A program made the translations under genes and the position numbers. From NCBI GenBank assembly GCA_020723385.1, contig DYIZ01000016.1, forward strand, positions 1-58,903: a stretch of 58,903 nt of DNA, written 5' to 3'. Position 1 is the first letter of the stretch, and each line of letters starts with the position of its first letter. Shown in pieces: positions 26,719-42,102 of the stretch. The notes beneath the pieces were generated by a model. That model had not been told where the DNA came from, ran no database searches, and saw only the letters and a list, made by a program, of their open reading frames with translations. The DNA is from Candidatus Aquidulcis sp. (GTDB lineage: Bacteria; Chloroflexota; Anaerolineae; Anaerolineales; UBA4823).

Positions 26719-27635
26719 TAACTGATCAACTTCTCGATCTCGTCCTTCAACTGAACGATTTCTTGCCTTCGTGAAGCCTCGAATTTGATTTCTACCCGCC
26801 GTCCGCCTGGGGAAAGTGTCAGGGATAATGTTAGCAGGTCGCCGCTATGCGCCAGCAGTGACACCGCTTCGATATGACTCAAGGCAATATAGCGCCATTT
26901 GCCGCCATACCGAATCCCCCGGTTTTCTCTGCCGCGTTCATCATCCAGGATAACAATGAGTTCCTTATCGGTCAGGATAACCAGATGAGCCAATGCTAAA
27001 GCTCGATAAAATGTGCGCCAGCCCAGTTTGAAGGTGGGTTTATTGATTTTGGGCTGGTATATGGTTTGGATGACCTTTTCGCCGTCCACCAGACTTTCGA
27101 TGGCAAAGTTCATAAATTTGAAGTTTTCCACCGCCAAATCATCGAACTTGGCCCTTTCGGCGCGCCGCTCGTGCGCGTCTACGATGCCTGGCGCGGGCCG
27201 CATCTTGTTCAGAAAAGGCGCAAAATGCCGGGCCGTCGCAGTGTTGAATTCAATGGTCGTGGAGGATACTTTCCCCGTGCTGGTTACACCCCCAATCGTG
27301 ATCCAGGAAAATAATAGGATAAAACCTATTTCAAGATCGGTAATGGTTTCCAATGGATATTCTGTCATGATCACCTGGCTGCCGATCCGCTCCCAAACCG
27401 TGATCGTATCGTTGACTTCACAAAGCAGCTTCTCAGCCGTCTTGTGACGGAAGCCCGCAATCGAAGGCGCAAAAACGGTATACGGCATTTGCTGCCCAAT
27501 TTGCAGACTATCTCCCAATGTCATTTTGTAGGCGCTTTTATAGGGTTCGGGAACAGCCTCATAAGACTCGATGACTTTAGCCCACGACGACATCGTTTGC
27601 CGGCCCCCGGTCATTGAAGACAACTGATTATCCAT
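26718..27635 (-). CDS. Protein of unknown function (PH-like C-terminal half)
   Basis: A 305-residue protein, not recognised beyond structure-like patterns. Residues about 85-120 contain a hydrophobic strand pair (ITDLEIGFILLFSWITIGGV), and residues 205-305 (LAHLVILTDKELIVILDDERG...KWRYIALSHIEAVSLL...VEIKFEASRRQEIVQLKDEIEKL) read like a bacterial PH-like domain, in which a small beta-barrel is capped by a helix. There is no signal peptide and no sure transmembrane helix. It leads a two-gene unit with the GrpB-family gene. Confidence 0.75.
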   Translation of the reverse strand: MDNQLSSMTGGRQTMSSWAKVIESYEAVPEPYKSAYKMTLGDSLQIGQQMPYTVFAPSIAGFRHKTAEKLLCEVNDTITVWERIGSQVIMTEYPLETITDLEIGFILLFSWITIGGVTSTGKVSSTTIEFNTATARHFAPFLNKMRPAPGIVDAHERRAERAKFDDLAVENFKFMNFAIESLVDGEKVIQTIYQPKINKPTFKLGWRTFYRALALAHLVILTDKELIVILDDERGRENRGIRYGGKWRYIALSHIEAVSLLAHSGDLLTLSLTLSPGGRRVEIKFEASRRQEIVQLKDEIEKLIS

Positions 27636-27669
27636 ATTTGATGTCTTAGCAATAGTCCTTTATTTTTGA

Positions 27670-27813
27670 TTTTGCTACGGGACATTCTGAGATAGCGCCT
27701 GCATTTTTATCACGAATGCCACGAATAGACAAATTTCACGAATGCTTTTTATGGAAAATTCGTGTCATTCGTTCATTTGTGCTATTCGTGATTTGATTTG
27801 TCCGGTAGCAAAA
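27670..27813. mobile_element. 144-bp element with 15-bp inverted ends and an internal CACGAAT palindrome
   Basis: TTTTGCTACGGGACA (27670-27684) is matched by TGTCCGGTAGCAAAA (27799-27813), inverted with one mismatch. Inside, CACGAAT words in one orientation pair with ATTCGTG words in the other. No ORF. It resembles a MITE or a REP-type palindrome cluster; no second copy was seen in the window. Confidence 0.65.
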
Positions 27814-27976
27814 TTTTCGATCAGAGATTACTTCGATTTTTCTGATAATTACAGCCTCTGCTCTGCGACCCCATTATCGCGCCGGCCCAACCCACCGTCA
27901 AGCGAGACGGCGATCCGGTATTCGCTGCCGATAAGCTTGGGGAGATAGTAGCTGGCAGGAGACGCCTGTCGTTATA

Positions 27977-28041
27977 GGGTATCCCCTATAGACGATTTAG
28001 GGACATCCCCAATTGAACCTTCCGGTAAACTACCTTATCCT
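27977..28041 (+). promoter_or_regulatory. Promoter of the FHA/TolB gene with tandem GGR-N4-YCC sites
   Basis: Site 1 is GGG-TATC-CCC (27977-27986), within a perfect TATAGGG/CCCTATA palindrome. Site 2 is GGG-ACAT-CCC (28000-28009). Centres are 23 bp apart. TTGAAC (28013-28018) and TATCCT (28036-28041, 17-bp spacer) are the -35 and -10. The same geometry recurs at 31806, 34291 and 36805. Confidence 0.7.
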
Positions 28042-28179
28042 AGAAAGTATCAACACAACCTTTCGTGGGTTCTGCTCGATTATCTCTGAAGTAACCTCGA
28101 CTGCGCCCAGCGCATCCTTTCTGGCGAACCACAGGATTCCCTCGGGGGCGCAGCCTGTTTTCCGAAAAAGTGTGAGCCG

Positions 28180-30789
28180 ATGAATAAACGAAACGAAATC
28201 TTCCCCGAATCCGAAAAAATGACGACCGACGAAGATCGCATTCTCATCCTGACGGCTGACCATGCCTCGCGAACGGTCCCCATCCCCAAAACCGGCCTGA
28301 CGGTCGGCTCAAAACCCGATAACACCATCGTCCTGAATGATCCCCAGGTCGCCGGATACCATGTGCGCGTCGAAGCCGAAAACGGTCATTACCGTGTCAT
28401 TGATCTCAACAGCATCACCGGGACGTTCCTGGGCGACTTGCGCCTGCATCCGGGCGCTCCGGCGGAATGGATATCGGAGCAAGCCCTGCGAATCGGCGAG
28501 AACTGGTTGGGACTCAAACTGGCAAAAGAAACAGCAGAACCTGCGGAAGAGTCTGAAAAACCCGCTTTGCCAGAATTCGATCCTCAGCTCATTCAGTGGA
28601 GCGACGGGGAGAAAGTCGGTATCTACATTGCTGTATCACAACTATCGCTTTACCCCGGTAAAAGCGCAGATATCGGCATGGTAGTCTTCAACGCTGGCCC
28701 GGCTGAGGATCACGTCCGCCTGACAGCCGGGGGTGTGCCTGCGAACTGGGTGCACGCCCTCCCCGCCGTGGTTGCTGTGCCTGCCGCCTCCCAACAGGAG
28801 ATCAATCTACACATTCAATTGCCCCAAGCGCCGCTGGCCCGAGTTGGCAGGCATGTTATCACGCTTCAAGTCGCCAGCCAAAACCGGGCGGAGGAAAAGA
28901 TCGAGACGACCATCTCGTTGACCGTGCTGGCTTTTTCACGCTTCAACAGCACGCTCAGCCAGGAGCCGGCGCTCGATAAGCCAGCCCGGCTGAAGATCGA
29001 GAATTTGGGTAATTTACCCGAGACCTTCGTCATTTCGACGCAAGACCCGAGCGGCAAGCTTAAATTTCAATTGAGCGACGAGCAGGTGAAGATTGCCGAA
29101 GGCGAAGCTGCCGTAGTGGAACTATATGTCACCCCGCCGGTGACGCTTTTGAGCCGCACCGAGCCAGTCTTCCCCTTCTCGGTTCAAGTAAGATCTGCCT
29201 CCGGCCAAATACAGACCCACAAAGCCAGCCTGGCCGGGCAAGCGCTGTTTCCCATCTGGCTTTTGCCGGTCTTGCTGGTCAGTATGTTGTGCATGTCTGG
29301 CGTATTGTTGGCCGCGTTGTTCGGTCTCGCCCGGGCCGGAGCGCCCGCCCCGGAGACACGCACTCCCACCCCAACGATGACCGTGACCAGCCTCTTGACC
29401 GATACCGATCTAGACGGCCTGAGCGACGCGGACGAAATCCGCATGGGCACCAACCCCCGCTCGGCAGACACCGACAGTGATAGTTTGAGAGATGGGGATG
29501 AAGTGCGCGCCGGGTCTAACCCATTGGTGATCGATTCGGATGGCGATACGTTATCCGATGGTATGGAGGTGCTGGTGATGCACACCAGCCCCGTGAACCC
29601 TGATACCGATGGCGATGGGCTTTACGACAATGTTGATCCTGCCCCGGGAGAACTGCCCACACCCACCCCAATCATCCCTACCGCCACAGAACCACCCAGC
29701 GCCACGCTCCCGCCCACGGCGATTCCCCCCACTGCCACACCCCCGCCTCCGACGAATACGCCGATTCCCCCGAGTCCCACCGTACCGCCGCCTACGCCAG
29801 CGCCCACAACGGCCTCCCCTCCCACTCCAACTACCGCCCCGCCCACTGTCACGCAGCCGCCGCCAGTGATCGTCCATGGCACGATCGCCTTTGAAACCGG
29901 CCGGAATGGGAATCTGGAGATTTATCTCTATCAAGCCAGCACCCAGAGCGAGCTGCGTCTGACGAATAATGCGACCGACGACCGTCACCTGGCCTGGTCC
30001 TCTCTCAATCAACTGGCCTTCGATACCGATCGTGACGGCAACAGCGAGATTTATGTCATGAATGCCGATGGCAGCGCTCAAACGCGCCTGACCGATAACC
30101 CGGCCCGGGATTTCAACCCATCCTGGTCGCCTGATGGCAGGAGCCTGACTTTTATTACCAACCGAGACGGCAACGACGAAATTTATGCGATGAGCGCCGA
30201 TGGCTCTAATGCAATCCGCCTGACGAATACGCCCGCGGCTGAATGCTGCCAGCTTTTTTCGCCGCAGGGAAACCTGATTGTATTCATGTCCGATCAGACA
30301 GGCGGCTGGGGCCTATACCGGATGAATACCGATGGCACGAATCAATCGTTGCTCGCCCCAGCCAGCGCCTCGCCCCCGAGTTGGGCGCCGGATGGGACGC
30401 GGCTGGCTTTCGTCAGCAATCGCGATGGCAATGCTGAAATTTATACGATCAATAGCAATGGCGGCGGCGAAACACGCCTGACCAATAACTCGGCGCAGGA
30501 TACAAACCCCGTATGGTCGCCAGACGGCTCGCGGATCATGTTTCTCTCCAACCGGGATGGGAATTTCGAGATTTATACCATGAACCCGGATGGCTCGAAC
30601 CAAAGCCGAATGACCAACACCGCCGGCGACGAATGCTGCCTGGTTTGGTCCCCGGACGGCGCTCAGATTGCATTCTCAACACCGCTCGATGGCGCGCTGG
30701 AAATCCATGTTTTCGATATCATAACCCGGGGTTTTCTACGCCTGACATCCAATGCATCTTACGATGCCCCGTTGCTTTGGCGCCCATAA
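28180..30789 (+). CDS. Single-pass membrane protein: FHA domain, Ig-like domains, TSP3 calcium repeats, TolB propeller
   Basis: An 869-residue protein. Residues about 20-110 form an FHA domain (VGSKPDNTIVLNDPQVAGYHVRVEAENGHYRVIDLNS), a phosphothreonine reader. About 130-360 are two beta-sandwich repeats of the alpha-galactosidase-NPCBM-associated type. A single transmembrane helix is near 363-385. Then follow three or four thrombospondin type-3 Asp-rich calcium repeats (TDLDGLSDADEI, DTDGDGLYDNVDP), a Pro/Thr stalk (about 495-570) and a TolB/PD40 propeller with NRDGNAEIYTINSNG blades. There is no N-terminal signal peptide, so the FHA end is predicted to face the cytoplasm. It may couple outside conditions to Ser/Thr-kinase signalling. 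The PRC-barrel gene follows after 79 bp. Confidence 0.85.
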   Translation: MNKRNEIFPESEKMTTDEDRILILTADHASRTVPIPKTGLTVGSKPDNTIVLNDPQVAGYHVRVEAENGHYRVIDLNSITGTFLGDLRLHPGAPAEWISEQALRIGENWLGLKLAKETAEPAEESEKPALPEFDPQLIQWSDGEKVGIYIAVSQLSLYPGKSADIGMVVFNAGPAEDHVRLTAGGVPANWVHALPAVVAVPAASQQEINLHIQLPQAPLARVGRHVITLQVASQNRAEEKIETTISLTVLAFSRFNSTLSQEPALDKPARLKIENLGNLPETFVISTQDPSGKLKFQLSDEQVKIAEGEAAVVELYVTPPVTLLSRTEPVFPFSVQVRSASGQIQTHKASLAGQALFPIWLLPVLLVSMLCMSGVLLAALFGLARAGAPAPETRTPTPTMTVTSLLTDTDLDGLSDADEIRMGTNPRSADTDSDSLRDGDEVRAGSNPLVIDSDGDTLSDGMEVLVMHTSPVNPDTDGDGLYDNVDPAPGELPTPTPIIPTATEPPSATLPPTAIPPTATPPPPTNTPIPPSPTVPPPTPAPTTASPPTPTTAPPTVTQPPPVIVHGTIAFETGRNGNLEIYLYQASTQSELRLTNNATDDRHLAWSSLNQLAFDTDRDGNSEIYVMNADGSAQTRLTDNPARDFNPSWSPDGRSLTFITNRDGNDEIYAMSADGSNAIRLTNTPAAECCQLFSPQGNLIVFMSDQTGGWGLYRMNTDGTNQSLLAPASASPPSWAPDGTRLAFVSNRDGNAEIYTINSNGGGETRLTNNSAQDTNPVWSPDGSRIMFLSNRDGNFEIYTMNPDGSNQSRMTNTAGDECCLVWSPDGAQIAFSTPLDGALEIHVFDIITRGFLRLTSNASYDAPLLWRP

Positions 30790-30868
30790 CGGCAACGTGG
30801 AATTTTCGAAGAATGGGCGTTACAGATTATCCAGAAGGATATACCCTCACGAACAAAGGAGGCTTTCC

Positions 30869-31510
30869 ATGAACACAACAATGGAATTCGAACAAAACGC
30901 TGGGGTTGTTACCGCCAGCGGTCAGGAAGTTGGACACATTGACCGGGTGGTGGTAGATCCCGAAACCCGAGCAATCACGCACATCGTCGTCCGCAAGGGA
31001 TTCCTGTTGACGCACGATAAAGTTGTGCCGATCGAGCTGGTCGAGGATGCTACCGAGCAGCAGATCACGCTGCGTGAAGATGCCGGTGATTTGGATGCAC
31101 TACCGCCATTCGAAGAAACACATTACGTCTTGGCTGATGAAGACGCTCAAAACGAACCGCCCCCTGTCGAGTATATGCCTTCGGCGTATGGCTTAGGGTC
31201 TCCCCTGGCCATGCCGGCCAATCGGTATATCCAGAAAACTGAGCAAAATATCCCCGAAGGCTCGGTTGCGTTGAAAGAAGGCGCGAAAGTCGTTTCCGCC
31301 GAAGGCAAATACGTTGGCAATGTTGAACGCGTTGTCACAGACGCTCCGACCGACAAAGCCACCCATTTGCTCGTTTCGAAGGGGCGGATCGCCAAAGTGA
31401 AAAAACTCATCCCGATCAACTGGGTGATGGGATTGAGCGAAGAAAAAGTTCGTCTCCGCGTCGAACAGGAAACGATCGAAGAGTTATCCAGCGTTACGAC
31501 TGAGAAGTAA
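30869..31510 (+). CDS. PRC-barrel domain protein (two barrels)
   Basis: A 213-residue soluble protein with two PRC-barrel/DUF2171-type domains: residues about 10-70 (GVVTASGQEVGHIDRVVVDPETRAITHIVVRKG) and about 135-200 (AKVVSAEGKYVGNVERVVTDAPTDKATHLLVSKGRI). They are joined by an acidic, Pro-rich linker. PRC barrels occur in RNA processing, photosynthetic reaction centres and stress proteins, so the role is open. A strong AAAGGAGG site precedes the start at 30869. It probably shares the FHA gene promoter. Confidence 0.85.
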   Translation: MNTTMEFEQNAGVVTASGQEVGHIDRVVVDPETRAITHIVVRKGFLLTHDKVVPIELVEDATEQQITLREDAGDLDALPPFEETHYVLADEDAQNEPPPVEYMPSAYGLGSPLAMPANRYIQKTEQNIPEGSVALKEGAKVVSAEGKYVGNVERVVTDAPTDKATHLLVSKGRIAKVKKLIPINWVMGLSEEKVRLRVEQETIEELSSVTTEK

Positions 31511-31959
31511 GGGGGCTGTATGACCCAGGAAACACGTTCAGGCAGCCAGGGAGGCTGCCAAAATGACGCAGGGATACTGATCTCCGCCTGCCTCAAGGCG
31601 GCGCGCTGATCCCGGCTCAGCCCCGGGGTCAGCGCAATTTCTGTGGCTCTTCCGCCTTCGGTGGGAAATATCCCAGATTTGGGGATTCTTCCCTTGAATC
31701 GGGAGACCCAATTTGTTAATGCGCCAAAGATTTGATGCGGCGGACGACAGTCCGCCGTGAGCATCACGGCAAAACGGTAGAGCCGGAAAGTCCCTATGGC
31801 GGGTAGGGAAATCACTATACCGATAGTGGGATACATCCTGATTGTTCAGCGCACTTTTTCGGTTTATATTGATGACTGTAAAGGCCATCCACCTGATTGC
31901 AAATTGCCAGGCGAAGGCCAATCAACCAAAATCAAGCTCGATAAAGGAAGGAGATTACG
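31511..31959. other. Intergenic region with a regulated promoter
   Basis: The 449-bp region includes short inverted repeats (for example around 31715-31770) and the tandem-site promoter at 31806-31870 for the GlsB-like gene. Apparent ORFs on both strands show no homology-like sequence. Confidence 0.7.
31806..31870 (+). promoter_or_regulatory. Promoter of the GlsB/YeaQ gene with tandem GGR-N4-YCC sites
   Basis: Site 1 GGG-AAAT-CAC (31806-31815), site 2 GGA-TACA-TCC (31829-31838), centres 23 bp apart. TTGTTC (31842-31847) and TATATT (31865-31870, 17-bp spacer) follow. The offset of the -35 box from site 2 is identical to the other three promoters. Confidence 0.7.
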
Positions 31960-32244
31960 ATGTCTCTCATAGGTTTGGCAATTTTGCTCGTCATTGCAGC
32001 CATCGCGGGCAGCCTCGGATCGGCTTTGGCGGGCTACTCTGTAAGAGGCTGCCTGATGTCTATCGTTGTTGGGTTCATCGGCGCTTTATTGGGCCTTGGG
32101 CTTGCAAAAACCCTGGGGCTGCCAGAACCCCTGCCAATCTCGATTCAGGGGGAAACCTTTCCACTCATCTGGTCAATCATCGGATCGGCGCTGTTTTGTG
32201 GCGTCCTCGGGTTTCTATCCCGTAGACGCCGGTTAACCTACTAA
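31960..32244 (+). CDS. GlsB/YeaQ/YmgE-family stress-response membrane protein
   Basis: A 94-residue protein with three hydrophobic helices; IAGSLGSALAGYSVRGCLMSIVVGFIGALLGLGLAK is the GlsB/YeaQ transglycosylase-associated family core, and a short Arg-rich C-terminus ends it. Members are induced by envelope or general stress. Their biochemical role is not known. An AGGAAGGAG site precedes the ATG. A hairpin lies between it and the next gene. Confidence 0.9.
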   Translation: MSLIGLAILLVIAAIAGSLGSALAGYSVRGCLMSIVVGFIGALLGLGLAKTLGLPEPLPISIQGETFPLIWSIIGSALFCGVLGFLSRRRRLTY

Positions 32245-32281
32245 ACAAAGGTCGTGTCAACTCAATAAAATTTGGGAAAGT

Positions 32282-32324
32282 GGAGTGTTTTGGGCAGGCG
32301 AAGCCCGCCCAAAACACCCACTCC
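32282..32324 (+). terminator. Hairpin between glsB-like and yggT-like genes
   Basis: GGAGTGTTTTGGGC (32282-32295) pairs with GCCCAAAACACCCACTCC ending at 32324; only short T-runs follow. It may attenuate or stabilise a shared transcript. Confidence 0.55.
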
Positions 32325-32399
32325 CTCCTTTTGAGATGATACCAATGGGCGATCTGAATGCTCGAAACAGATATTCGGACGCCACTGGAGAGATAACCG

Positions 32400-32834
32400 A
32401 TGTTAGAGAATAAAGTCGAGGAATACGAAGTTGTGAAAAAAAGCTCCCAAGGCGATTACGAGCACCATGAAAGAATTGTCGAAGATGTTGGCGCTCAACA
32501 TCGCCAGAATATCAACCGGCTGATGCAATTCCTCTGGCTGATATTCGGTGTTTTGGAGGCGCTGATTGGGCTAAGATTCTTTCTCAAGCTAATCGCTGCC
32601 AACCCAGACAGCCCCTTCTCCCAACTGGTTTATACCTTCACGGACCTTTACATGTGGCCGTTCGCCGGCCTGACCAGCTCACCCTCTGCCGGTGGTATGA
32701 TTTTGGAAGTTCCGGCCATCATCGCCATGTTCGTTTATGCCTTGTTGGCCTGGGTCCTGATCAGTGTCGTCGGCATCTTGTTCGCCCGCTCAAATGCGCG
32801 GAATGTTACCGTGTTCGAGCGCCGCAGCGAGTGA
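32400..32834 (+). CDS. YggT-like membrane protein
   Basis: A 144-residue protein. After about 40 polar residues come two hydrophobic stretches (residues about 43-65 and 100-128), around a GLRFFLKLIAANPDSPFSQLVYTFTDLYMWPFAGL core like that of YggT/YlmG. YggT-family proteins have been tied to osmotic protection and to cell-division or chloroplast functions. The N-terminal acidic extension is unusual. It is followed by a strong terminator. Confidence 0.75.
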   Translation: MLENKVEEYEVVKKSSQGDYEHHERIVEDVGAQHRQNINRLMQFLWLIFGVLEALIGLRFFLKLIAANPDSPFSQLVYTFTDLYMWPFAGLTSSPSAGGMILEVPAIIAMFVYALLAWVLISVVGILFARSNARNVTVFERRSE

Positions 32835-32870
32835 ATGAGGGAATGATCCAGTTAGGTCAAACACTACAAC

Positions 32871-32917
32871 CCAAAAAGACCTTCATGCGTGCGGGGCACG
32901 TGTGAAGGTCTTTTTGG
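32871..32917. terminator. Strong intrinsic terminator
   Basis: CCAAAAAGACCTTCA (32871-32885) pairs perfectly with TGAAGGTCTTTTTGG (32903-32917), with a nested CGTGC/GCACG stem. It sits between convergent genes and works in either direction. Confidence 0.9.
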
Positions 32918-32952
32918 TTCTCTGGAAACTGCTGTTATACACCGCCAGCGTT

Positions 32953-32973
32953 AGATCGGATTGCCAATCTGGC
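32953..32973. repeat. Palindromic repeat, copy 3 (CGGATTGCCAATC core)
   Basis: Third copy of the 13-mer core seen at 1700-1720 and 13417-13435; the right arm has one change. Confidence 0.75.
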
Positions 32974-33049
32974 CTACCTCCTTTTTTGCGACCGTTTTAT
33001 GAGTCATAACTTCAGGATGGTCATGCGTGACAGGCTATCGGAGGTGACT

Positions 33050-34153
33050 TCAGGAGGATATTTTATGCTGCTCGTGGTATAGGTCTGCCTTTACACCCAG
33101 TTTGGCAAATATTTTAGCCTTGACCTGAGTATCGAATACCTGCCATTTCAATTCTGCGTAATCTTCGCACAGCTCACCGGCCAGAAACCCAAGCGGGATG
33201 CTGAATCCGCCTGCCATGTGTTTCCCACCCCCATAATAATGCTCTTCGGGGTTGGCTCCGAATGCTTCTTTCAGGAATTGATCGGGGTCAAACGTCAATT
33301 TGGATGTTCTCAACGAGCCGGTCAGGGTCTCTTTTTGATCATCTTCCTTCAATATCCCATAGACGATGGCTGTATGGACATTCTCTTCTTTCCCCAGGAA
33401 TTCGGCGGCCTGGGGAATGGCATCCCGATCCTCGGCGCGTAAATAACCGATCCCTGCGATTGACAGGTTTTCGACCAAAATACGGTTTCCCAGCGCCCGG
33501 CGGATAATGTCCATCACCTGCTTGGAGCGCGCCTGGTTCATGATCTGTTCCAGTAGATCGGCGTCTCGAAATTGGCTGAGAAAGGCTGCGGCATGAAAAT
33601 CATCCTCACCGGCCCGGATAAAACCAGCGGTATCGGTGATAATGCCGTGCAGCAGGGCAGTGGCAACTGCCACATGTTCTTTACGCCCCTTCTGCAAGGA
33701 CAGCAGTCCCTGCTCAATATAGTGGGTATAAATGGTCGCAGTGGATCCAGTTTTTTGGATATCGCTAAATTCGGGTTTCAGATTCCCTTGCGGCTCATGG
33801 TGGTCCACAACGATCAAAACCGGTACGCTGGCTGTTTCGAGGGATTTGACAAGGCCGTTGACGGTCGTGCCCTGGTTGTCCAAAAAAACCGCGCCGTGGT
33901 ATTGCGCCAAATCCAGCTTCTCATCGTAAGGCGCCAGGTCCACGCCTAACAACTTTACCAAAGCGACATTCTGGCTATGACTGATTTTTCCTGTATAAAC
34001 GATGTCGGCTTCGATGTTGTGTTCGGCTGAAATCAGCCGATGAGCAAAGGCTGAAGAGATCGCATCTGGGTCAGGGTAATCATGTAAAACGACCAGATGC
34101 TTCTCCCCCTGGTGTTTATCCAACAATTCGATGATCTTTTGGTTTTTATCCAT
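33050..34153 (-). CDS. DHH/DHHA1 phosphoesterase
   Basis: A 367-residue protein with an N-terminal DHH domain: VVLHDYPDPDAISSAF (metal site), VFLDNQGT and VDHHEPQG, the DHH motif itself. The C-terminal DHHA1 part carries GGGKHMAGGFS, which binds the phosphoryl substrate. Relatives include NrnA-like oligoribonuclease/pAp phosphatases and c-di-AMP phosphodiesterases. The exact substrate is open. The start at 34153 is chosen for an AGGTGG site; a TTG at 34183 in frame is the alternative. Its promoter carries the tandem sites described at 34291. Confidence 0.88.
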   Translation of the reverse strand: MDKNQKIIELLDKHQGEKHLVVLHDYPDPDAISSAFAHRLISAEHNIEADIVYTGKISHSQNVALVKLLGVDLAPYDEKLDLAQYHGAVFLDNQGTTVNGLVKSLETASVPVLIVVDHHEPQGNLKPEFSDIQKTGSTATIYTHYIEQGLLSLQKGRKEHVAVATALLHGIITDTAGFIRAGEDDFHAAAFLSQFRDADLLEQIMNQARSKQVMDIIRRALGNRILVENLSIAGIGYLRAEDRDAIPQAAEFLGKEENVHTAIVYGILKEDDQKETLTGSLRTSKLTFDPDQFLKEAFGANPEEHYYGGGKHMAGGFSIPLGFLAGELCEDYAELKWQVFDTQVKAKIFAKLGVKADLYHEQHKISS

Positions 34154-34290
34154 GATGTCCACCTGCCCACGGGAAGGTTTCAACTCTTCCGGCTTGAGAA
34201 TGAAATGGGTCGGATTTTTGGGCGCATCGTGAAATTACCCGATAGCCCTAAAATCCGCATTTCTTGACGGCAAATCCGATTATTAATTTC

Positions 34291-34355
34291 AATATACACA
34301 TATACTTGATCATAATCAATGGGGAAGCGCCCTTTCGAGATAGTAGGGATTTCCC
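34291..34355 (-). promoter_or_regulatory. Minus-strand promoter of the DHH gene with tandem GGR-N4-YCC sites
   Basis: On the minus strand, distal site GGG-AAAT-CCC (34346-34355) and proximal site GGG-CGCT-TCC (34323-34332) are centred 23 bp apart. TTGATT (34314-34319) and TATATT (34291-34296, 17-bp spacer) follow, with the -35 offset 8.5 bp from the proximal centre. The geometry equals that of the three plus-strand promoters. Confidence 0.7.
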
Positions 34356-34390
34356 CATCTGTCTGGGCAATGTCCGCCGGGGGATAGCAC

Positions 34391-34456
34391 AAACTGTCAG
34401 CAGCAGTAAAGACTCCCGGAGTTTTGGAAACGCTGGGAGTCTTCCCTGATAGTTTT
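34391..34456. repeat. Palindrome related to 6101-6175
   Basis: Shares the AAAGACTCCCGGAGTTTT arm and AAACTGTC/GATAGTTT flanks with the repeat upstream of ppnP. The inner stem pairs GACTCCC with GGGAGTC. Confidence 0.7.
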
Positions 34457-34473
34457 GCGCTGCACTCGTACGC

Positions 34474-34615
34474 CAGGATTTTCTTAAAGTCGCGAGTATC
34501 TCTTACCATCCCGTCATTGCGAGCGTTTTTTGCGAAGCAATCCCGTTCTTGCCAGGAGATTGCTTTGGCAAAGTACGCCTCGCAATGACGCCCCATGGAC
34601 TTTAAGAAATTCCTG
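34474..34615. mobile_element. MITE-like element, copy 2 (142 bp)
   Basis: The better-preserved copy. CAGGATTTTCTTAAAGTC (left end) and its inverted partner at the right end differ at one of 18 positions. CGTAC occurs on both sides (34467-34471 and 34616-34620), a possible target duplication. The internal CGTCATTGCGAG and CTCGCAATGACG arms match copy 1 at 13454-13595. Confidence 0.85.
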
Positions 34616-34686
34616 CGTACACCAGTATATATACCCAATTTGGATAATAATCGTTATAATTAGAAATTCCGGGCGCTATCAAGTTT

Positions 34687-36165
34687 GTGAATAGAGTGGT
34701 AACGATGATGAATCTAGAATATCGCTGGCTCGATGAATACTTCGACACGGTTCACCAATATACTTGGATACTCGATCCACGCGGAAAAGTGGTCAGAGCG
34801 AACCATGCCGTGCAAAAATTAACCGGTCTTTCCCAGGAAGCCATGGCTGGCATCCCATTATGGTCAATGCCCTGGACAGGACTCACCAGACAGGATAAGC
34901 AGACTATCAAATGGGTGGTCAATCAGGCTGTCAAAGGTAGAATGGCAGGTCATGAGTTAGAAATCCACCACAGAGGCCAGCCAGGCATAATTATCAACTT
35001 ATCCCTCAAGCCAATATTATTCGAAACAGGGGAAATCAAGTTTATCGTTGCTGAAGGATACGATATTACCGCCTATAAACGCACATCCGAAGCCTTGAAT
35101 CAAAGCGAAGCGCGGTTTAAAACGATTTTCGATAAGGCAGGCATTGGAATTTTGATCAAAGACATTAATGGGAAGATGCTCGACTGCAACCCGGCTTTCC
35201 ATTCGATGTTAGGCTACACGATTGATGAATTGAAGCAACTCGATTATTTAGAAATCACGCACCCACTGGATAAAAAACTCAGCCGGAAGTTATTCAACGA
35301 ACTGGTGAATGGCAAACGAAAGAGTTATTTCATCGAGAAACGATACCTCCATAAAGACGGACAATCAATCTGGGCGCGACTCACCGCTTCCCTGGTTCTC
35401 GAGCCTGATCACCAGGCGCAATTTGTCATCGCGATGGTCGAAAATATAACTGCGCAGAAAGAAATCGAAACCGAGCTGGTTGAATTGCAACAGCGTCTGA
35501 TGCAGGGCCGTGAAATGGAGCGTCTCCGCTTAGCTCAAGAACTCCATGATGGGCCATTGCAGGAAATAATAGGCGTGACTTACCAGGTTCAGGAATTGGA
35601 AGATACAACCACGGAAAATGCGATCCGCGAGCAGCTCCAGGCCGCCCATACCGCCCTCAATCAACTTACAAGGTCGCTGCGAACAATTTGCGGAGAGTTG
35701 AGACCTCCGACATTGGTCCCCTTTGGGCTGGAAAAAACCATAAAATCTCACGCCGGGCAATTCCAGGCAACTCATCCAGATTTGACAATCAATTTGGATT
35801 TGGCCCATGATGGTCAATCTCTATCCGAACAGGTTCGCATTGTTCTGTTTCGCATTTATCAGGAAGCGCTAAACAACATCCTGCGTCACGCACAAGCCAG
35901 TAAAGTGCAGATTCGCTTCAGTCAAGAGGAAGAGCGCGCTATCCTGGAAATACAAGATGACGGAACAGGGTTCGAGCTGCCAAACCGCTGGATTAAGCTG
36001 GCGCGCAATGGTCACCTTGGCCTTGTCGGTTCCATGGAACGCGCCAAAGAGGTCGGTGGCAATCTGGAAATACTGACAAAACCCGGCAAAGGCACGATCA
36101 TTCGAGCTATTGTTCCCCTTCACGATGAATCGTTTCATCCTGCGGGCCAGGAGGAAAAGTCATGA
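34687..36165 (+). CDS. NarL-family sensor histidine kinase with two PAS domains
   Basis: The 492-residue kinase has no transmembrane segment. PAS 1 spans about residues 15-130, PAS 2 about 140-260 (ARFKTIFDKAGIGILIKDINGKMLDCNPAFHSMLGY and a PAC-like MVENITAQKE). A HisKA_3 domain follows (ERLRLAQELHDGPLQEI, phospho-acceptor His) and then HATPase_c (EALNNILRHAQASKVQIRF, DDGTGFELP, GHLGLVGSMERAKEVGG). The start is GTG 34687; ATG codons at 34705 and 34708 are alternatives. Its stop overlaps the response-regulator start (ATGA), so they form a cognate pair. Confidence 0.92.
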   Translation: MNRVVTMMNLEYRWLDEYFDTVHQYTWILDPRGKVVRANHAVQKLTGLSQEAMAGIPLWSMPWTGLTRQDKQTIKWVVNQAVKGRMAGHELEIHHRGQPGIIINLSLKPILFETGEIKFIVAEGYDITAYKRTSEALNQSEARFKTIFDKAGIGILIKDINGKMLDCNPAFHSMLGYTIDELKQLDYLEITHPLDKKLSRKLFNELVNGKRKSYFIEKRYLHKDGQSIWARLTASLVLEPDHQAQFVIAMVENITAQKEIETELVELQQRLMQGREMERLRLAQELHDGPLQEIIGVTYQVQELEDTTTENAIREQLQAAHTALNQLTRSLRTICGELRPPTLVPFGLEKTIKSHAGQFQATHPDLTINLDLAHDGQSLSEQVRIVLFRIYQEALNNILRHAQASKVQIRFSQEEERAILEIQDDGTGFELPNRWIKLARNGHLGLVGSMERAKEVGGNLEILTKPGKGTIIRAIVPLHDESFHPAGQEEKS

Positions 36166-36794
36166 GTCCCATCCGAGTTTTACTGGTAGACGACCATCCC
36201 GTAGTTCGCAGTGGACTGCGCGGCATGGTGGAAAAAGCCGTAGATATCGAAATGGTGGGCGAAGCATCCAACGGCGGAGAAGCTTTACAAATGGTCGAAG
36301 AGACCCACCCAGACGTGATACTGTTGGATATGGAGTTGCCCGATATTCAAGGCGCCCAGGTGGCGCGACAGGTGCAGCAGCTCTATCCGAAGGTTAAAAT
36401 ACTGGCGCTGAGCGCTCACGATGATTCTGTATATGTCCGTGAGCTTCTTGAATTGGGGGCGGCCGGATACCTGATGAAAGAAGAAGCCCCGGAAGCAATT
36501 ATTGATGCAATCAGAGGCATAGCTCACGGAGAACGAGGCTGGGTCAGCCGGCGCATTGCCGCCCAAATGGCTTCCTGGGTGGAAGTTGGTGAACAAAGCA
36601 AGATGAAATTGACCACGCGGGAACATGAGGTTCTTCGCTTGATTGTCCGGGGAAAGACCAACCAGGCGATAGCACTTGACTTGAGTATCAGCGAGAAAAC
36701 CGTCGAGAAATACATCAGCGCAATTTTCGCCAAACTAAACGTTGCCTCCAGGGTCGAAGCGGCGGTTCATGCGGTGCAAGAGGGATTGATTTAA
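36162..36794 (+). CDS. NarL/FixJ-family response regulator (receiver + LuxR HTH)
   Basis: A 210-residue regulator. The receiver has DDHPVVRSGL (acidic pocket), VILLDMELPD (phospho-acceptor Asp), and LSAHDD. The LuxR-type HTH at about 145-205 reads KLTTREHEVLRLIVRGKTNQAIALDLSISEKTVEKYISAIFAKLNV. It is coupled to the PAS kinase by a 4-bp overlap. It is the best candidate to bind the tandem GGR-N4-YCC sites at four nearby promoters; that link is inference. Confidence 0.95.
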   Translation: MSPIRVLLVDDHPVVRSGLRGMVEKAVDIEMVGEASNGGEALQMVEETHPDVILLDMELPDIQGAQVARQVQQLYPKVKILALSAHDDSVYVRELLELGAAGYLMKEEAPEAIIDAIRGIAHGERGWVSRRIAAQMASWVEVGEQSKMKLTTREHEVLRLIVRGKTNQAIALDLSISEKTVEKYISAIFAKLNVASRVEAAVHAVQEGLI

Positions 36795-36804
36795 ATTCAA
36801 GGTA

Positions 36805-36868
36805 GGAATATCCCTATGCTTTATTTAGGGTTATCCGGGCTTGAAATGCCATACCCATCGCATATAAT
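36805..36868 (+). promoter_or_regulatory. Promoter of the stand-alone receiver gene with tandem GGR-N4-YCC sites
   Basis: Site 1 GGA-ATAT-CCC (36805-36814) and site 2 GGG-TTAT-CCG (36828-36837) are centred 23 bp apart. TTGAAA (36841-36846) and TATAAT (36863-36868, 16-bp spacer) follow. This is the best sigma-70-like promoter in the window. Confidence 0.75.
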
Positions 36869-36954
36869 GACAGTGAATACTAAAGACTTTGGTCGGCAGA
36901 AGAATGAATTGCTGTCATTTCCAGCACAGCAGAGAATCCCTTCTGCATAAGAAC

Positions 36955-36986
36955 CCTAACCCGCATAAAGCAGAATAGCTATAACC
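36955..36986. repeat. 32-bp leader repeat, copy A
   Basis: CCTAACCCGCATAAAGC and the next 15 bp match, in reverse complement, 55024-55055 with two mismatches. Both copies lie in 5' leaders, here of the stand-alone receiver gene. Confidence 0.8.
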
Positions 36987-37061
36987 TGAATCTTGAAATT
37001 CATGCTTTTTCTGCACAGATCGCATGGGTCAGGCCTTATATATCGATTGCAGGCGCATCTA

Positions 37062-37490
37062 ATGTTACCAACAATAACCCAAGTGGTAATTGCGGAAGAT
37101 AACGAGTTTGTGCGGAGGGGGATACGCAAATTACTCGACAAGGCAGCAGACATCCAGGTGGTCGGTGAAGCGAAGAATGGTTTGGAAGCTTTACGCCTGG
37201 TGAATGATCTGCTGCCCAATATTTTGCTGCTGGATGTTGAAATGCCCTTCGTCAACGGTATCGAAGTTGCTCGCCAGCTAAACAGAACCAGTAAAGGGGT
37301 CCGTATCTTGGTATTGAGTGCTTACGATGATCAGGAATATATTCAAGAAATGCTGGCAAATGGCGCCTCTGGATATTTGATCAAGGATGAGGCGCCCGAA
37401 CGAATTGTTGAGGCCGTGCGGGGTGTCGCACAAGGTGAGACCGGCTGGGTCAGCCCACAGGTTAAAGCAAAACTGATAAAAAAACGGTGA
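37062..37490 (+). CDS. Stand-alone response-regulator receiver domain
   Basis: A 142-residue protein containing only a receiver: AEDNEFVRRGIRKLL (acidic pocket), ILLLDVEMPFVNG (phospho-acceptor Asp), VLSAYDD, and a C-terminal ETGWVSPQVKAKLIKKR. The end matches the linker that precedes the HTH in the 210-residue neighbour, so it looks like a NarL-type regulator that lost its DNA-binding domain, or a CheY-like partner. The start at 37062 begins the conserved domain; no clear SD. Confidence 0.88.
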   Translation: MLPTITQVVIAEDNEFVRRGIRKLLDKAADIQVVGEAKNGLEALRLVNDLLPNILLLDVEMPFVNGIEVARQLNRTSKGVRILVLSAYDDQEYIQEMLANGASGYLIKDEAPERIVEAVRGVAQGETGWVSPQVKAKLIKKR

Positions 37491-37563
37491 TCGCCAGCGC
37501 ATTGGCGATAGCTGCCGCCCTCCGTAAGATGCGCTCAACAATTCCTTCGAGAAACTCAAAGAA

Positions 37564-37600
37564 AGCGGCGCGCCAGAGATGGCGCGCCGCTGTTTATTGT
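37564..37600. terminator. Terminator after the receiver gene
   Basis: AGCGGCGCGCCA (37564-37575) pairs perfectly with TGGCGCGCCGCT (37580-37591), followed by GTTTATTGTTT. Confidence 0.85.
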
Positions 37601-37668: not shown

Positions 37669-40600
37669 CTACCGTTTCACTACCGGCAGGTAAACCCTGT
37701 ACTGCGGAGCGATCACGGCAGTTGTCGTGGCGGTGGTTGTGGCGGCCACGCCGCTGTCCAGCGATGAGGTGACCGTGAGGGTGGCGACATCGTCATCGCC
37801 ATCCGCTGCGCCAGCCGGGATGACAACCACGACTGTGACGATCACAGTATCACCCGCTCCCACCGGGCCGGTGCTCAGCCCGCCGGGCAGGGTCGCCGTC
37901 CATACACCGGTTACCGCCAGGGTAAAGGTGTCGGTGTAGTTGCCCTGGTTGGTCACCGTAAAGGTATAGGTGACTACTTCACCGGGGAGGGCATCGCCAG
38001 TCTGTGCGGCGCTCACAGCAACCGCCGGTTCGGCGCCGGCATAAGTCGTGCCGGTGGCTTCGGCGCTGCCGCCCAGCGAGCCGGTGGCCGTCAGGGTGAA
38101 GGTATCGCTGGCGAGGATGACCGCATCCAGCGGGTCTGGCGGGATGGTCACGCTCACCGTGAAGGTGATCGTTTCCTGGGGGTCGAGCATTCCGGTGCTG
38201 AGCGGCGCATCGGTCGCCCACAGGTTGCCGGCGACATCCAACGAGAAGGACTGCGCCGCGGGAGCCGTATTGGTGATGGTCAGAACGTGATTTACCGTCT
38301 CGCCGGGGCCGCCCGTGTGGGCCTGCGCCGCTGGGGAAAGTTCCACACCCAGGGACGGGTCGGCGGTGGTCACGCCGTGCGTGGTCAGTGTGATTCCGGG
38401 AATATCGGCTGATTGGGCGGTAAGGGTGAACTCACTCGAGCCAGTCGCATCCCCCGGGACATCCACCCGCACATCAATCGTCGCGGCAGACCCACCGGTG
38501 ACTGTGATCGTTGTCGGGCCGAGGATCGCCGCCGGCCAATCGCTCGTTGTCACATCGAGGGTGTATGTATCATCAGCGCCGTCGTTTTCGAGCGTGAAGG
38601 TATGCGTCACCGGAACTCCCGGAAGCGTCGTCAGGTCGGTATCCGGGCCGAGTGAAGCGGTGGGGGTGCAGGCAGTCACGGAGACATCGTCCACGTACCA
38701 GCCTTCCAGCCCGATGGCGTTGTTCGTGCCCATACGGTAGCGTATAGCCACCGTTTGACCAGCGTAGGCGCTCAAATCTGCGACGGTCTCGAACCAGTTC
38801 TGCGTGTTGCCGCACCAGGCATTCAGGCCCGACAGGGGGTTGCCGGTTCCCGAAGCGATGGCGCCATCGTAAGGATTGGTAAGAAGCTGGCCTTCGAGCT
38901 GTGTCCAGCTTTGGCCGCCATTGGTCGTGACTTCGATGATGCCGCCATCGTAACAGCCGCCGGTGCGGTTCTCGATCTTCTGATAATCCCAAAAGCGCAG
39001 TGTAACCGGGGTCTGACCTGCGGGTAGAATGAGTGCAGGCGTTTCCAGCCACTGATCGCTGACAATGGATTTGTCAACAGCCTTGAAAGAGTTGGGGAGA
39101 CTGTGACGACGTTGGCTGTTCAAGGCCCAGGTGTCTTCGATCCCGCCATGCAGCCAGCCGGGATCGCCCGCGTCGAAGTTTTCACTCAGCAGGGTGACAG
39201 AGGTTGACCCCATGGCGCATTGACCGACGCCTGCCGAGGTCAGGAAGCGGTAAGCAATGGAATACGCGCCGTCGCCGCAGGTGTTGGCAGCCAGCACGCG
39301 CCAGTAATAGATCGTGTTCGCAGCCAGCGCCGCGCCGGGGGTATAGGCGTTGGTCGTCAACCCCGAAGCGGATTCGACGATGTTGGTAAAGCCCGCGTCG
39401 GTCGCGATCTCGATCGTGTAGTTTTTCGCCTGGCCGGCAGCCAGCCAGGTGAAGGTGGGCAGAACCGGAACATCGCGGGCTTCATCGGACGGGTAGGTCA
39501 GATCGGGGATGGCGGGCAGGTCGGTGAACAATTCCAGCCCGACGGTAGCCGTGTGAACCTGCGTCACAGCCACGCCGACGATATCAATACTGTAGCTGCC
39601 CGGTGTACCGAGATTGGTGTCGGAGATGGTGAAATCGCTGGTGGTGGGCGGGGTGGCCGGGTTGGGGGTGAAGGCGCTGGTCGTCCCGGCGGGTGTGCCG
39701 TATGCCGTAAGCGCAACAGGCTGATTGAAGCCCATCACCTGCCCGAGGGTGATGGTGTAGCTGGCTTCGGTCGGGGCGCAGATGCTCTGCGTCGCGGGAT
39801 CGGCGCTGATGGTGAAATCTGCGCCGAAGATGCAGTTCGAGCAAACCAGTGCGAAATCCTGGTCGGTGGTGTCGCCGTTGTAGACGACGCCGTCGCCGGC
39901 AATGTTGATCGCATCAATCGTGATCGTAGCCGATGCGCCGCCTGGGGTCTGGATGAACACGTTTTCGAGGTTGTTCAGCGTATCGGCGCTGCCGCCCGTG
40001 GCAGACCAGCCGCCGCTGAAGACATTGCCTTTGTAGGTGTTAGCGCCGTTGACCACAGTCAGGTTGAGATTGTTCACCAGGGCGGGATTGGCGCCCACTG
40101 CACCAGCGGCATCTGCCCAGGCCACTGTGACCTTCAGGGGCTGGCCGGGGTCTGCGACGCCCACGGTCAGCGTCCAGGTTTCGCCGCTGTTGTGGAACAC
40201 AGTTTCCTGGTCGCGGTAGATGCGGTCGGCGTCGGGATCGAACAGGTTGCCCAGGTTGACGCGGCCCCAGCCTTCGTTGGCGTTGGGGATATCGTGCGTG
40301 CTCATGTCCACTGCGGAGTTGACCAGCAGGGCTTTGGCCATTTCAGGGCTGGGAGTGGCTCCACTGTTGAAGCCGCGCCACCACTGGGTGAGCAGCACCA
40401 CCGCGCCGGAAACGTGCGGCGATGCCATGCTCGTGCCGGAGCAGTAGGCATACATATTGTTCGTGCCGGAGATGGAAGTGGAGCAATCGCCGCCTTCATC
40501 GTTGCGGGTGGATGCAATTTGCTCACCGGGTGCGGTAATTGTGGGCACCCAGCGGCCATCCACCGCAGGGCCGCGGCTGCTGAAGCTGGAGATGTTGTCA

Positions 40601-42102
40601 ATATTGCCGACCCGGTAGTTAATCGAGCTGGCGACGACGATCAGGTTTTTGGCTTCTTTCGGGGCGGTGAGGGTGTGCGCGCTGGGGCCAGAGTTCCCTG
40701 CTGAGAAGACCTCGATAAACGGCTCGGCAGCCGCGGCGGTATCGAAGTTGCCATCCAACACCATCAGGTCATGCGTGCGCTCGGAGGCTTGATAACCATG
40801 GTTGGTGCCTTCGCCGGTAGTCCACGAGTTGTTGCCGCCGATAGCGCCGCCCAGCACCGCACGTTTCGAGTGTTCCTGCCAGCCGCCCGAAGGAGGCCAG
40901 GATGTGCCGGAGCCAGAGTTCATAGCGAAGAAATGCACCGCCGGGGCCACGCCCAGGCCGTACAGGTAGCCGTTGGCGTCGGTGTAGCCCGCCGTCGCGT
41001 CACCGCCGACGATGCCGGAAACGTGCGTGCCATGCCCGCCGCCAAAGGCGCTGGAGCAGTCGGAGCCAGGCTCACCGGGGTAAGAACACGCCCCCGGGAA
41101 GTCGTACCCGCCGACAATGTGAGATCCCAGGTCGGGGTGATCGTAATCCACGCCCGAATCGATGATCGCCCAGATGACGTTATCGCCGTCCAGGCCCAGG
41201 CCGTTCAGCCAGGTGTTGTAGCCCGTGAAGGGCACAGAGGGCGTTCCGGTGTAATTGCCCGCGATGATCTGGGAAGACATCTCGTCTTCCATCACCGGCG
41301 TGGGGTAAGAATATCCCATCCAAAGCACCGTATTCAACCGGGCAACATCCTCGATTGAGGCGGCGTTCAACTGGACGACGGCCTCATAGAAGGCTTTGTC
41401 TGGCTGGGCGGGGAAATACTGGACGATGCTCGCCCCCAGGCTGGCGAGGGTGTCGAGCGTGGCGGCGACGTTGCCATCGTTGTAGAACATCACGTCCACG
41501 TTTTTGATCTGCCCGGCGAGGCCTTTCAGATCGGCGTTGATCTTGTATGCCGGGTGAAAATCGCCCGCCCAGCGGACAAAGCCCAGGGCCGATGCGGTCT
41601 GAGCCTGCGAGGGAGTGGCCCACACGAGATAAGTCTCGAACGGGTAATATTGCAAGACGGTCATACCGGTTTCGGACAGACGCGCCAGCCACTCATCTTT
41701 CGTGGGGCCGACGATTTGCACCAGCCGGAAGCCAGCGACGTTCTCGTTAGCGCGTAAAGCCGCCGGTAAGCTGGGTTCGCCATCGGCGATGGGGTCGAAG
41801 GCATAATCCAAGACGCGCACCTGCCCGGCATCGGGGGCATCCTCGAACGGGATGCCGCTGGCGGCCAGGGCTGCGTAGTCGGCGTTGTTCAATTCCAGCC
41901 AGCGAAACGCGCCGTAATCGAGGCTCAATGCGGGCGTGAGGCCCAGGCTGGCAAGCTGGACGCCGGCGGAGGCCGGCAGATGCACGAAGTGACTGCCGGT
42001 TGGCCCGGCGGAGAGCACAGAGGCTCCCACCAGGAGGTTAGGGACGATCAAGGTGACGATCGCTGCGATGGAAAAAGCTTTGAAAAGGGTACGCAGGTTC
42101 AC
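37669..42102 (-). CDS. Large secreted subtilisin-like (S8) protease with beta-sandwich repeats
   Basis: A 1477-residue exported protease starting at a GTG with AGAGGAG upstream. The signal peptide spans about residues 1-32. The S8 catalytic triad is visible at D315 (IIDSGVDYDHPDL), H357 (GGGHGTHVSG) and S558 (CSGTSMASPHVSGA). C-terminal to this lie a fibronectin-III-like unit (about 890-960), a MAM/immune-inhibitor-like beta-sandwich (about 985-1150, YVDDVSVTAC), three conserved DUF11/NEW3-like repeats (about 1155-1465) and the ending YRVYLPVVKR. It probably digests external protein. An isolated 23-bp perfect hairpin lies upstream of the gene. Confidence 0.93.
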   Translation of the reverse strand: MNLRTLFKAFSIAAIVTLIVPNLLVGASVLSAGPTGSHFVHLPASAGVQLASLGLTPALSLDYGAFRWLELNNADYAALAASGIPFEDAPDAGQVRVLDYAFDPIADGEPSLPAALRANENVAGFRLVQIVGPTKDEWLARLSETGMTVLQYYPFETYLVWATPSQAQTASALGFVRWAGDFHPAYKINADLKGLAGQIKNVDVMFYNDGNVAATLDTLASLGASIVQYFPAQPDKAFYEAVVQLNAASIEDVARLNTVLWMGYSYPTPVMEDEMSSQIIAGNYTGTPSVPFTGYNTWLNGLGLDGDNVIWAIIDSGVDYDHPDLGSHIVGGYDFPGACSYPGEPGSDCSSAFGGGHGTHVSGIVGGDATAGYTDANGYLYGLGVAPAVHFFAMNSGSGTSWPPSGGWQEHSKRAVLGGAIGGNNSWTTGEGTNHGYQASERTHDLMVLDGNFDTAAAAEPFIEVFSAGNSGPSAHTLTAPKEAKNLIVVASSINYRVGNIDNISSFSSRGPAVDGRWVPTITAPGEQIASTRNDEGGDCSTSISGTNNMYAYCSGTSMASPHVSGAVVLLTQWWRGFNSGATPSPEMAKALLVNSAVDMSTHDIPNANEGWGRVNLGNLFDPDADRIYRDQETVFHNSGETWTLTVGVADPGQPLKVTVAWADAAGAVGANPALVNNLNLTVVNGANTYKGNVFSGGWSATGGSADTLNNLENVFIQTPGGASATITIDAINIAGDGVVYNGDTTDQDFALVCSNCIFGADFTISADPATQSICAPTEASYTITLGQVMGFNQPVALTAYGTPAGTTSAFTPNPATPPTTSDFTISDTNLGTPGSYSIDIVGVAVTQVHTATVGLELFTDLPAIPDLTYPSDEARDVPVLPTFTWLAAGQAKNYTIEIATDAGFTNIVESASGLTTNAYTPGAALAANTIYYWRVLAANTCGDGAYSIAYRFLTSAGVGQCAMGSTSVTLLSENFDAGDPGWLHGGIEDTWALNSQRRHSLPNSFKAVDKSIVSDQWLETPALILPAGQTPVTLRFWDYQKIENRTGGCYDGGIIEVTTNGGQSWTQLEGQLLTNPYDGAIASGTGNPLSGLNAWCGNTQNWFETVADLSAYAGQTVAIRYRMGTNNAIGLEGWYVDDVSVTACTPTASLGPDTDLTTLPGVPVTHTFTLENDGADDTYTLDVTTSDWPAAILGPTTITVTGGSAATIDVRVDVPGDATGSSEFTLTAQSADIPGITLTTHGVTTADPSLGVELSPAAQAHTGGPGETVNHVLTITNTAPAAQSFSLDVAGNLWATDAPLSTGMLDPQETITFTVSVTIPPDPLDAVILASDTFTLTATGSLGGSAEATGTTYAGAEPAVAVSAAQTGDALPGEVVTYTFTVTNQGNYTDTFTLAVTGVWTATLPGGLSTGPVGAGDTVIVTVVVVIPAGAADGDDDVATLTVTSSLDSGVAATTTATTTAVIAPQYRVYLPVVKR

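Follow-up and report, generated by a model that had tools for sequence, protein, structure and literature searches.

A two-component locus with four paired-box promoters

The window analysed here is one whole contig, DYIZ01000016.1 (58,903 nucleotides), of Candidatus Aquidulcis sp., and it carries genes for a sensor kinase and a NarL-type response regulator among units preceded by tandem palindromic boxes. A first-pass annotation had proposed that four promoters of shared geometry form a local regulon controlled by this regulator, and all four sites were present as it had described them. A pair of GGG-N4-CCC-like boxes was found at four intergenic sites, three on the forward strand (pattern starts 27977, 31806 and 36805) and one on the reverse strand (34317-34355). 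At every site the centres of the distal and proximal boxes are 23 base pairs (bp) apart, the -35 hexamer begins 8.5 bp beyond the proximal centre, and the -10 hexamer follows after 17 bp (FHA, GlsB and DHH promoters) or 16 bp (receiver promoter). Both the window sites and a 12-site consensus described below look sigma-70-like, with a TTG-type -35 and a TATATT -10 element.

The target genes named by the annotation (FHA/PRC, GlsB/YggT, DHH and a stand-alone receiver) and the NarL-type pair were likewise found, with the GlsB assignment lying under the Pfam cut-off (20.2 versus 25.3 bits). The regulator contains a receiver (Response_reg, expectation value (E) 4.5e-29) and a GerE domain (E 2e-20), placing it among the NarL/FixJ (LuxR-type) regulators, and the kinase has the HisKA_3 (E 1.5e-12) and HATPase_c (E 1.4e-10) domains of their partner kinases. 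PAS domains were detected in the kinase, without a GAF match at E ≤ 0.001, and it contains two cysteines in 486 amino acids. The nearest solved relatives of the regulator are VraR, NarL and DevR; the best structure match is VraR (5hev, E 3e-37), and DevR (3c3w) gave E 9.7e-29.

Table 1. Genes and promoter elements of the locus, in window coordinates
Feature	Coordinates	Strand	Basis
Distal box, FHA-gene promoter	27977..27986	+	GGGTATCCCC, sequence and pattern
Proximal box, FHA-gene promoter	28000..28009	+	GGGACATCCC, sequence and pattern
-35 TTGAAC / 17 bp / -10 TATCCT, FHA-gene promoter	28013..28041	+	sequence
FHA - TSP3 - PD40/TolB-type protein, 869 amino acids, target	28180..30789	+	domain matches
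PRC-barrel / DUF2171 protein, second target gene after FHA gene	30869..31510	+	Pfam
Distal box, GlsB promoter	31806..31815	+	GGGAAATCAC, sequence and pattern
Proximal box, GlsB promoter	31829..31838	+	GGATACATCC, sequence and pattern
-35 TTGTTC / 17 bp / -10 TATATT, GlsB promoter	31842..31870	+	sequence
GlsB/YeaQ-like small membrane protein, target	31960..32244	+	Pfam match below cut-off
YggT-family membrane protein, second target gene after GlsB	32400..32834	+	Pfam
DHH/DHHA1 phosphoesterase, target	33050..34153	-	Pfam; 73% identical counterpart behind G030 site
-35 TTGATT / 17 bp / -10 TATATT, DHH promoter	34291..34319	-	sequence
Proximal box, DHH promoter	34323..34332	-	GGGCGCTTCC, sequence and pattern
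Distal box, DHH promoter	34346..34355	-	GGGAAATCCC, sequence and pattern
Sensor kinase PAS-PAS-HisKA_3-HATPase_c	34705..36165	+	Pfam; overlaps regulator gene
NarL-type response regulator (receiver and GerE helix-turn-helix), presumed site-binding activator	36162..36794	+	Pfam, helix, structure matches
Distal box, receiver promoter	36805..36814	+	GGAATATCCC, sequence and pattern
Proximal box, receiver promoter	36828..36837	+	GGGTTATCCG, sequence and pattern
-35 TTGAAA / 16 bp / -10 TATAAT, receiver promoter	36841..36868	+	sequence
Stand-alone receiver, target	37062..37490	+	Pfam; 48% identical to regulator's receiver

The possibility that the leaders form an RNA element was rejected, since an Rfam search of 27600-37600 gave no match at the gathering threshold. 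The stretch separating the DHH-side site from the kinase gene contains an inverted repeat, CGTCATTGCGAG...CTCGCAATGACG (34510-34592), which resembles a dispersed intergenic repeat.

Strong sites are rare in the window and in the genome

The pattern GGRNNNNCMC-N13-GGRNNNNYCS-N3-TTG, itself derived from the four window sites, occurs at exactly four places on the two strands of the window, and these are the four sites. Box pairs from a strict list, also derived from the sites, occur four times at a spacing of 23 and at most twice at any other spacing between 8 and 60. When matrices were built with one site withheld and the three training sites were set aside in the ranking, the withheld site came first among ~118,000 window positions in four of four cases, with the smallest margin at the GlsB site (12.6 versus 10.4 bits, a difference of 2.2 bits). 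A cross-species matrix, made from the sites of five relatives and including no window site, recovered all four as well (38.7, 25.9, 20.8 and 16.8 bits). Across 322,428 bases taken from elsewhere in the genome, the best background score of this matrix was 15.7 bits, so that the FHA site, at 16.8 bits, has a narrow margin of 1.1 bits; on the reverse strand, a reading that overlaps the receiver site scored 19.0 bits. For a matrix from the four window sites, the best background score in the same 322,428 bases was 18.9.

The full-genome scan called for by the annotation was run with a sequence model built from the four window sites (R1). Over 6.43 megabases, the matches listed at E ≤ 10 were the same four sites, in a search that scored 150 of its 331 first-look candidates and may therefore have passed over weak sites.

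The promoter class is conserved in relatives

The window-site matrix identified the same tandem boxes and promoter hexamers in the related loci L031, L032/L038 and L039. It found no site in the 3.6-kilobase loci L040 (regulator 60% identical) and L041 (56%), and the wider contig of L040, from genome G013, does carry sites. A second model (R2) was built from 12 sites from five genomes: four from the genome of the window (G000), two from G433, three from G030, two from G007 and one from G013. The consensus of these sites reads TAGGGAAATCCCTA for the distal box, about nine free bases, AGGA..ATTCCC.ATTGAA, the spacer and TATATT.

At E ≤ 0.05, R2 gave matches in seven of 38 genomes of the family (G000, 4; G007, 33; G013, 7; G030, 4; G018, 3; G004, 1; G008, 1) and none in the remaining 31, and G433 contained 11. 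Matches outside the training set numbered 31 in G007, nine in G433, six in G013, one in G030 and none in G000. A column-shuffled model (R3) matched in 0 of the 38 genomes. Over 396 genomes of the class, 11 had a match at E ≤ 0.01, the own genome included, and over 400 genomes of the phylum only the own genome had one at E ≤ 0.001; both counts are lower bounds, because about a dozen candidates were scored per genome with stricter filters.

Close relatives of the regulator are also rare. At E ≤ 1e-60 they were found in four of the 38 family genomes, own included, and these four contain 4, 33, 7 and 4 R2 matches; at E ≤ 1e-65 they were found in four of the 396 class genomes, again including the own. 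The regulator is 80% identical in the metagenome-assembled genome FK_Sedi_A_Bin.25 (G433) and 70% in RBG_16_57_11 (G434, which appears to be the G030 assembly). Conservation in related genomes, a check put forward by the annotation, was observed as matches in the regulator-bearing G030, G013, G007 and G433. The annotation's description of a local regulon holds for the strong sites of the own genome, as listed with R1, but in G007 the promoter type is genome-wide and stress-like.

Box spacing over 79 sites, training sites included, was 23 bp in 34, 22 in 24, 21 in eight, 24 in seven and another value in six, although the 21-24 bp range of 73 of the 79 sites is partly circular, since R2 itself favours such spacing. 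Among 74 good pairs, the TTG started eight bases past the proximal midpoint in 49, seven in nine, nine in two and elsewhere in three, and none was found in 11. In two large class genomes (G341 and G315; loci L122, L131 and L124) the distal palindrome is TAGG-N7-CCTA-like rather than the usual TAGG-N6-CCTA, and from their sequences these promoters possibly represent a sister specificity.

Genes led by the sites

The sites of G030 precede counterparts of the window targets: the DHH phosphoesterase (73% identical), the GlsB-like gene (72.5% across 80 residues) and the stand-alone receiver (71%). A fourth, weak site (E 0.005) leads a unit with a PRC protein, 41% identical to that of the window, as its second called gene, and the four units of G030 are thus the four target units of the window minus the FHA gene. 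Two short genes of G030, those for GlsB and the receiver, had been missed by a simple gene finder and were placed by tblastn. A weak site of G018 leads to a GlsB gene and then to a protein that, judged by resemblance, is akin to the YggT family.

In G007, the next gene is on the same strand for 27 of the 33 sites, at a distance of up to 300 bp for 25 of them, and no site (0 of 33) lies inside a called gene; across the family outside the window, two of 49 sites do, both weak (G018:C137 and G008:C91). At these sites the spaced motif was not as common in coding DNA as upstream of genes; equal frequency would have counted against the annotation's proposal.

Pfam scans covered 49 site-led proteins. 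For the 27 same-strand G007 sites, every first gene was included (26 distinct genes, four of them without a match), and second and third genes of units were chosen by eye. The families recovered include YtxH, Transgly_assoc (GlsB), YflT, BON, Trypsin_2-PDZ, M50-CBS, DJ-1/PfpI, DoxX, SIMPL, CsbD, META, PRC, erythromycin esterase with YkuD-LysM, BrkB, cytochrome c, short-chain dehydrogenase, DUF1328 and SpoVS. Glycosyltransferase 9, a sugar transferase, UbiA, LLM, UDG, a lamin-tail protein and AI-2E_transport were matched as well. Transgly_assoc genes were found in site-led units at three of four in G007, two of three in G013, one of two in G030 and one of two in G018. In the own genome a Transgly_assoc search listed one gene, without a listed site, and the window GlsB-like gene was not listed.

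Many site-led genes of G007 look like a general/envelope-stress set, a resemblance that we take from general knowledge of these families. The annotation had asked whether matches gather near stress, envelope or signalling genes; by family, many G007 targets look stress-type and several others there do not.

The regulator beside the sites

In four of the ten other class genomes with an R2 match (G063, G204, G313 and G366) a site and a homologous regulator gene are immediate neighbours, an arrangement next to NarL-type regulators that the annotation had proposed looking for in relatives; in G313 the regulator gene as called extends into the site. A regulator tree groups the family orthologues with the regulators of G366, G063, G426, G237, G340 and G108 in a 14-member clade (95/94), and the regulators next to sites in G204 and G313 branch just outside it. 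The phospho-acceptor aspartate is replaced by asparagine in the site-adjoining regulator of G063 (L144). In G433 one intergenic stretch (L031:445-571) contains three boxes serving divergent promoters of a YtxH-like gene, named by resemblance, and a BON gene, with the middle box shared by both; the kinase gene starts ~320 bp past the BON gene and is followed by the regulator.

Site-adjoining regulators have the recognition helix T(V/G)EK(Y/H) in common. Seven of 13 regulators with this signature have an adjacent site, within 600 bp, that scores 25.5 or more, against 0 of 37 others, in a post hoc comparison (Fisher 1.7e-5). Other thresholds gave eight of 13 versus 0 of 37 (24.5) and five of 13 versus 0 of 37 (27.2), and in the control shuffled sequence hit 27.1 once in 200. 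Taken together, orthologue co-occurrence, target synteny, adjacency in four of ten genomes and the post hoc helix signature point to the regulator at 36162-36794 as the likely reader of the sites, as the annotation had suggested.

Both G007 (L043:8375-9079, reverse strand) and G366 (L130:75-869, reverse strand) have a second NarL-type gene close to the regulator and receiver genes. Pfam gave no Response_reg match for the receiver part of the G007 gene and a weak one (39.3 bits) for that of the G366 gene, and to judge from sequence these genes may be partners with decayed receivers.

A stand-alone receiver recurs behind the sites

A stand-alone receiver follows a site in the window and in G030, G013, G433 and G366, and in G007 it comes second among the called genes of a site-led set. 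Six of six retain the phospho-acceptor aspartate and the conserved lysine. The window receiver shares 48% identity with the receiver domain of the regulator itself, and the tree of these receivers is weakly supported. Recurrence behind the sites suggests feedback rather than an arbitrary gene, and the receiver may act in this way; lacking a DNA-binding domain and lying behind the regulator's own type of site, it suggests a simple brake, which could operate as a phosphate sink or by forming a mixed dimer incapable of DNA binding. Downstream of the window receiver, on the opposite strand (37669-42102), lies a gene for a 1477-amino-acid subtilase with an InhA-like MAM domain and Ig-like domains.

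A candidate activator regulon and its alternatives

Most likely, the paired-box sites make up the promoter class through which a single NarL-type two-component system controls targets that are largely of stress type. The sites are real and conserved: their architecture, the rarity of strong sites, conservation, target synteny, co-occurrence with the regulator and adjacency to it were observed. We consider it probable that they define an activator regulon of the DevR/DosR kind, which is small and local in this genome and more extensive in relatives; binding, phosphorylation, activation, receiver feedback, the stress label and the signal are inferred. The PAS-type kinase would phosphorylate the regulator, which would then bind as two dimers to the tandem TAGGGN4CCCTA-like boxes, centred near -44 and -67 from the predicted start site. 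Lying about two helical turns apart on one DNA face, the dimers would recruit housekeeping RNA polymerase to the adjoining -35 element in the manner of a DevR-like class II activator. Predicted targets are envelope/general-stress-type proteins (FHA-TolB with PRC, GlsB-YggT and the DHH phosphoesterase) and the stand-alone receiver, which probably damps the response through competition for phosphate or for dimer partners.

Several observations weigh against this interpretation. The R2 training sites come from the same genomes in which R2 matches, and the preference of R2 itself makes the 21-24 bp spacing partly circular. The loose core GG-N6-CC shows no excess at the expected distance in the window (three pairs at 23 bp, up to seven elsewhere). 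The regulators of G237 and G426 are 56% identical, yet their genomes contain no R2 match. In G018, SpoVS and GlsB are preceded by sites (E 1.8e-5 and E 0.03, respectively), and there is no regulator homologue at E ≤ 1e-44. None of 24 GlsB-family genes in seven other R2-positive genomes is by a listed site. In G433 a site leads to BON, kinase and regulator, whereas the nearest upstream site in the window points away from the kinase. The helix test was designed after the data had been seen, its rows are related and some were picked for genomes with matches, and six of the 13 signature regulators, including the second copy of G007, have no adjacent site scoring 25.5. Several G007 targets (glycosyl and sugar transferases, UbiA, LLM and UDG) are not stress-like. 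Raw six-frame open reading frames of at least 150 amino acids cover six of the 33 G007 sites, of which a codon-usage gene finder retains none. Finally, six of the 33 face a convergent gene and have no called target (C15:26397, C90:14954, C109:2908, C57:41717, C120:21385 and C120:21639; loci L079, L081, L084, L085 and L086); small RNAs or very short genes may be transcribed from these.

The boxes might be real but bound by one or more other NarL-family regulators of overlapping specificity, with the window regulator merely a neighbour. The ~30 near-full-length regulator homologues of the own genome and the G018 sites lacking an orthologue would fit such an arrangement. However, sites adjoin this type of regulator in several families and co-occur with its orthologue, and none of the 37 regulators without the helix signature has an adjacent site scoring 25.5, making this unlikely.

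The tandem boxes could instead mediate repression, the regulator beside the -35 element blocking polymerase until a signal frees it, and the abutting proximal box is positioned compatibly with such steric effects. Nevertheless, the boxes abut and do not cover the promoter, the spacing is 21-24 bp in 73 of 79 sites (subject to the circularity given above), and the target families are, as we presume, usually stress-induced. The activation proposed by the annotation agrees by analogy with the DevR precedent of tandem sites with the proximal one at -35 (PMC3029386), and we regard repression as improbable.

Chance resemblance or a dispersed intergenic repeat can be dismissed: the variable sequence between the boxes and the lack of a spacing-23 preference in loose GG-N6-CC pairs are outweighed by the leave-one-out ranks, the cross-species matrix, the shuffled R3 control, target synteny and the near-absence of sites from called genes, and conservation limited to boxes and promoter hexamers is unlike a repeat.

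The proposed activator regulon connects a regulator with the DNA code it would read and the genes it would control in uncultured Chloroflexota, for which no report of such a regulon was found in the literature searched (subscription journals lie mostly outside it). The model predicts promoters in related genomes, offers a candidate protein-DNA code linking the TVEK(Y/H) helix to GGG-N4-CCC boxes, and provides a natural series of regulons, from four to 33 listed sites, for studying regulon growth or shrinkage.

Comparison with known systems

The box recognized by DevR is longer, roughly GGGACT..AGTCCC, and DevR kinases are GAF/haem sensors. The window kinase has PAS domains without a GAF match, the box is shorter and the host belongs to another phylum; with a PAS rather than GAF kinase and the shorter box, this is not a DevR system. 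Its mode of action would nonetheless be DevR-like. In a study of Mycobacterium tuberculosis, close-packed sites with the start-proximal one overlapping -35 were common among the DevR promoters analysed, and cooperative binding was important for full induction of some genes (PMC3029386). The likeness comprises a NarL-subfamily regulator, tandem sites and a proximal site at -35, which here abuts rather than overlaps.

NreB of staphylococci is a PAS-type kinase with four Fe-S cysteines, and NreBC resembles the present system in pairing such a kinase with a NarL-type regulator. The distal box equals what we take to be the NreC consensus, TAGGGN4CCCTA, which was not confirmed in the literature searched. 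With two cysteines in the window kinase, an NreB-type Fe-S sensor is not present. Unlike NreC, which targets nitrate/nitrite genes, the system has no such gene among those scanned here. Phosphorylated NreC binds a GC-rich palindromic region and NreB carries an O2-sensitive [4Fe-4S] cluster (PMC8139620).

VraR/LiaR systems share the closest solved structure and envelope-type targets. Unlike VraR, with TVKTH, the recognition helix here is TVEKY, and no LiaF/VraT-like membrane partner was found among ten neighbouring genes scanned.

The CsbD, GlsB, YflT and DJ-1 type targets resemble what we understand to be the general stress sets of Sigma-B and EcfG. We tentatively propose, with rather less confidence than in the regulon itself, that in this branch of the Chloroflexota the general/envelope-stress response might be run by a NarL-family two-component system, through tandem-palindrome promoters with a built-in brake, the stand-alone receiver being a paralogue of the regulator's receiver domain, instead of by an alternative sigma factor. 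If so, the regulon would range from a four-promoter island around its regulator to more than 30 dispersed promoters in a related genome. Unlike the Sigma-B and EcfG systems, the promoters here are sigma-70-like with activator boxes, not of the alternative-sigma type.

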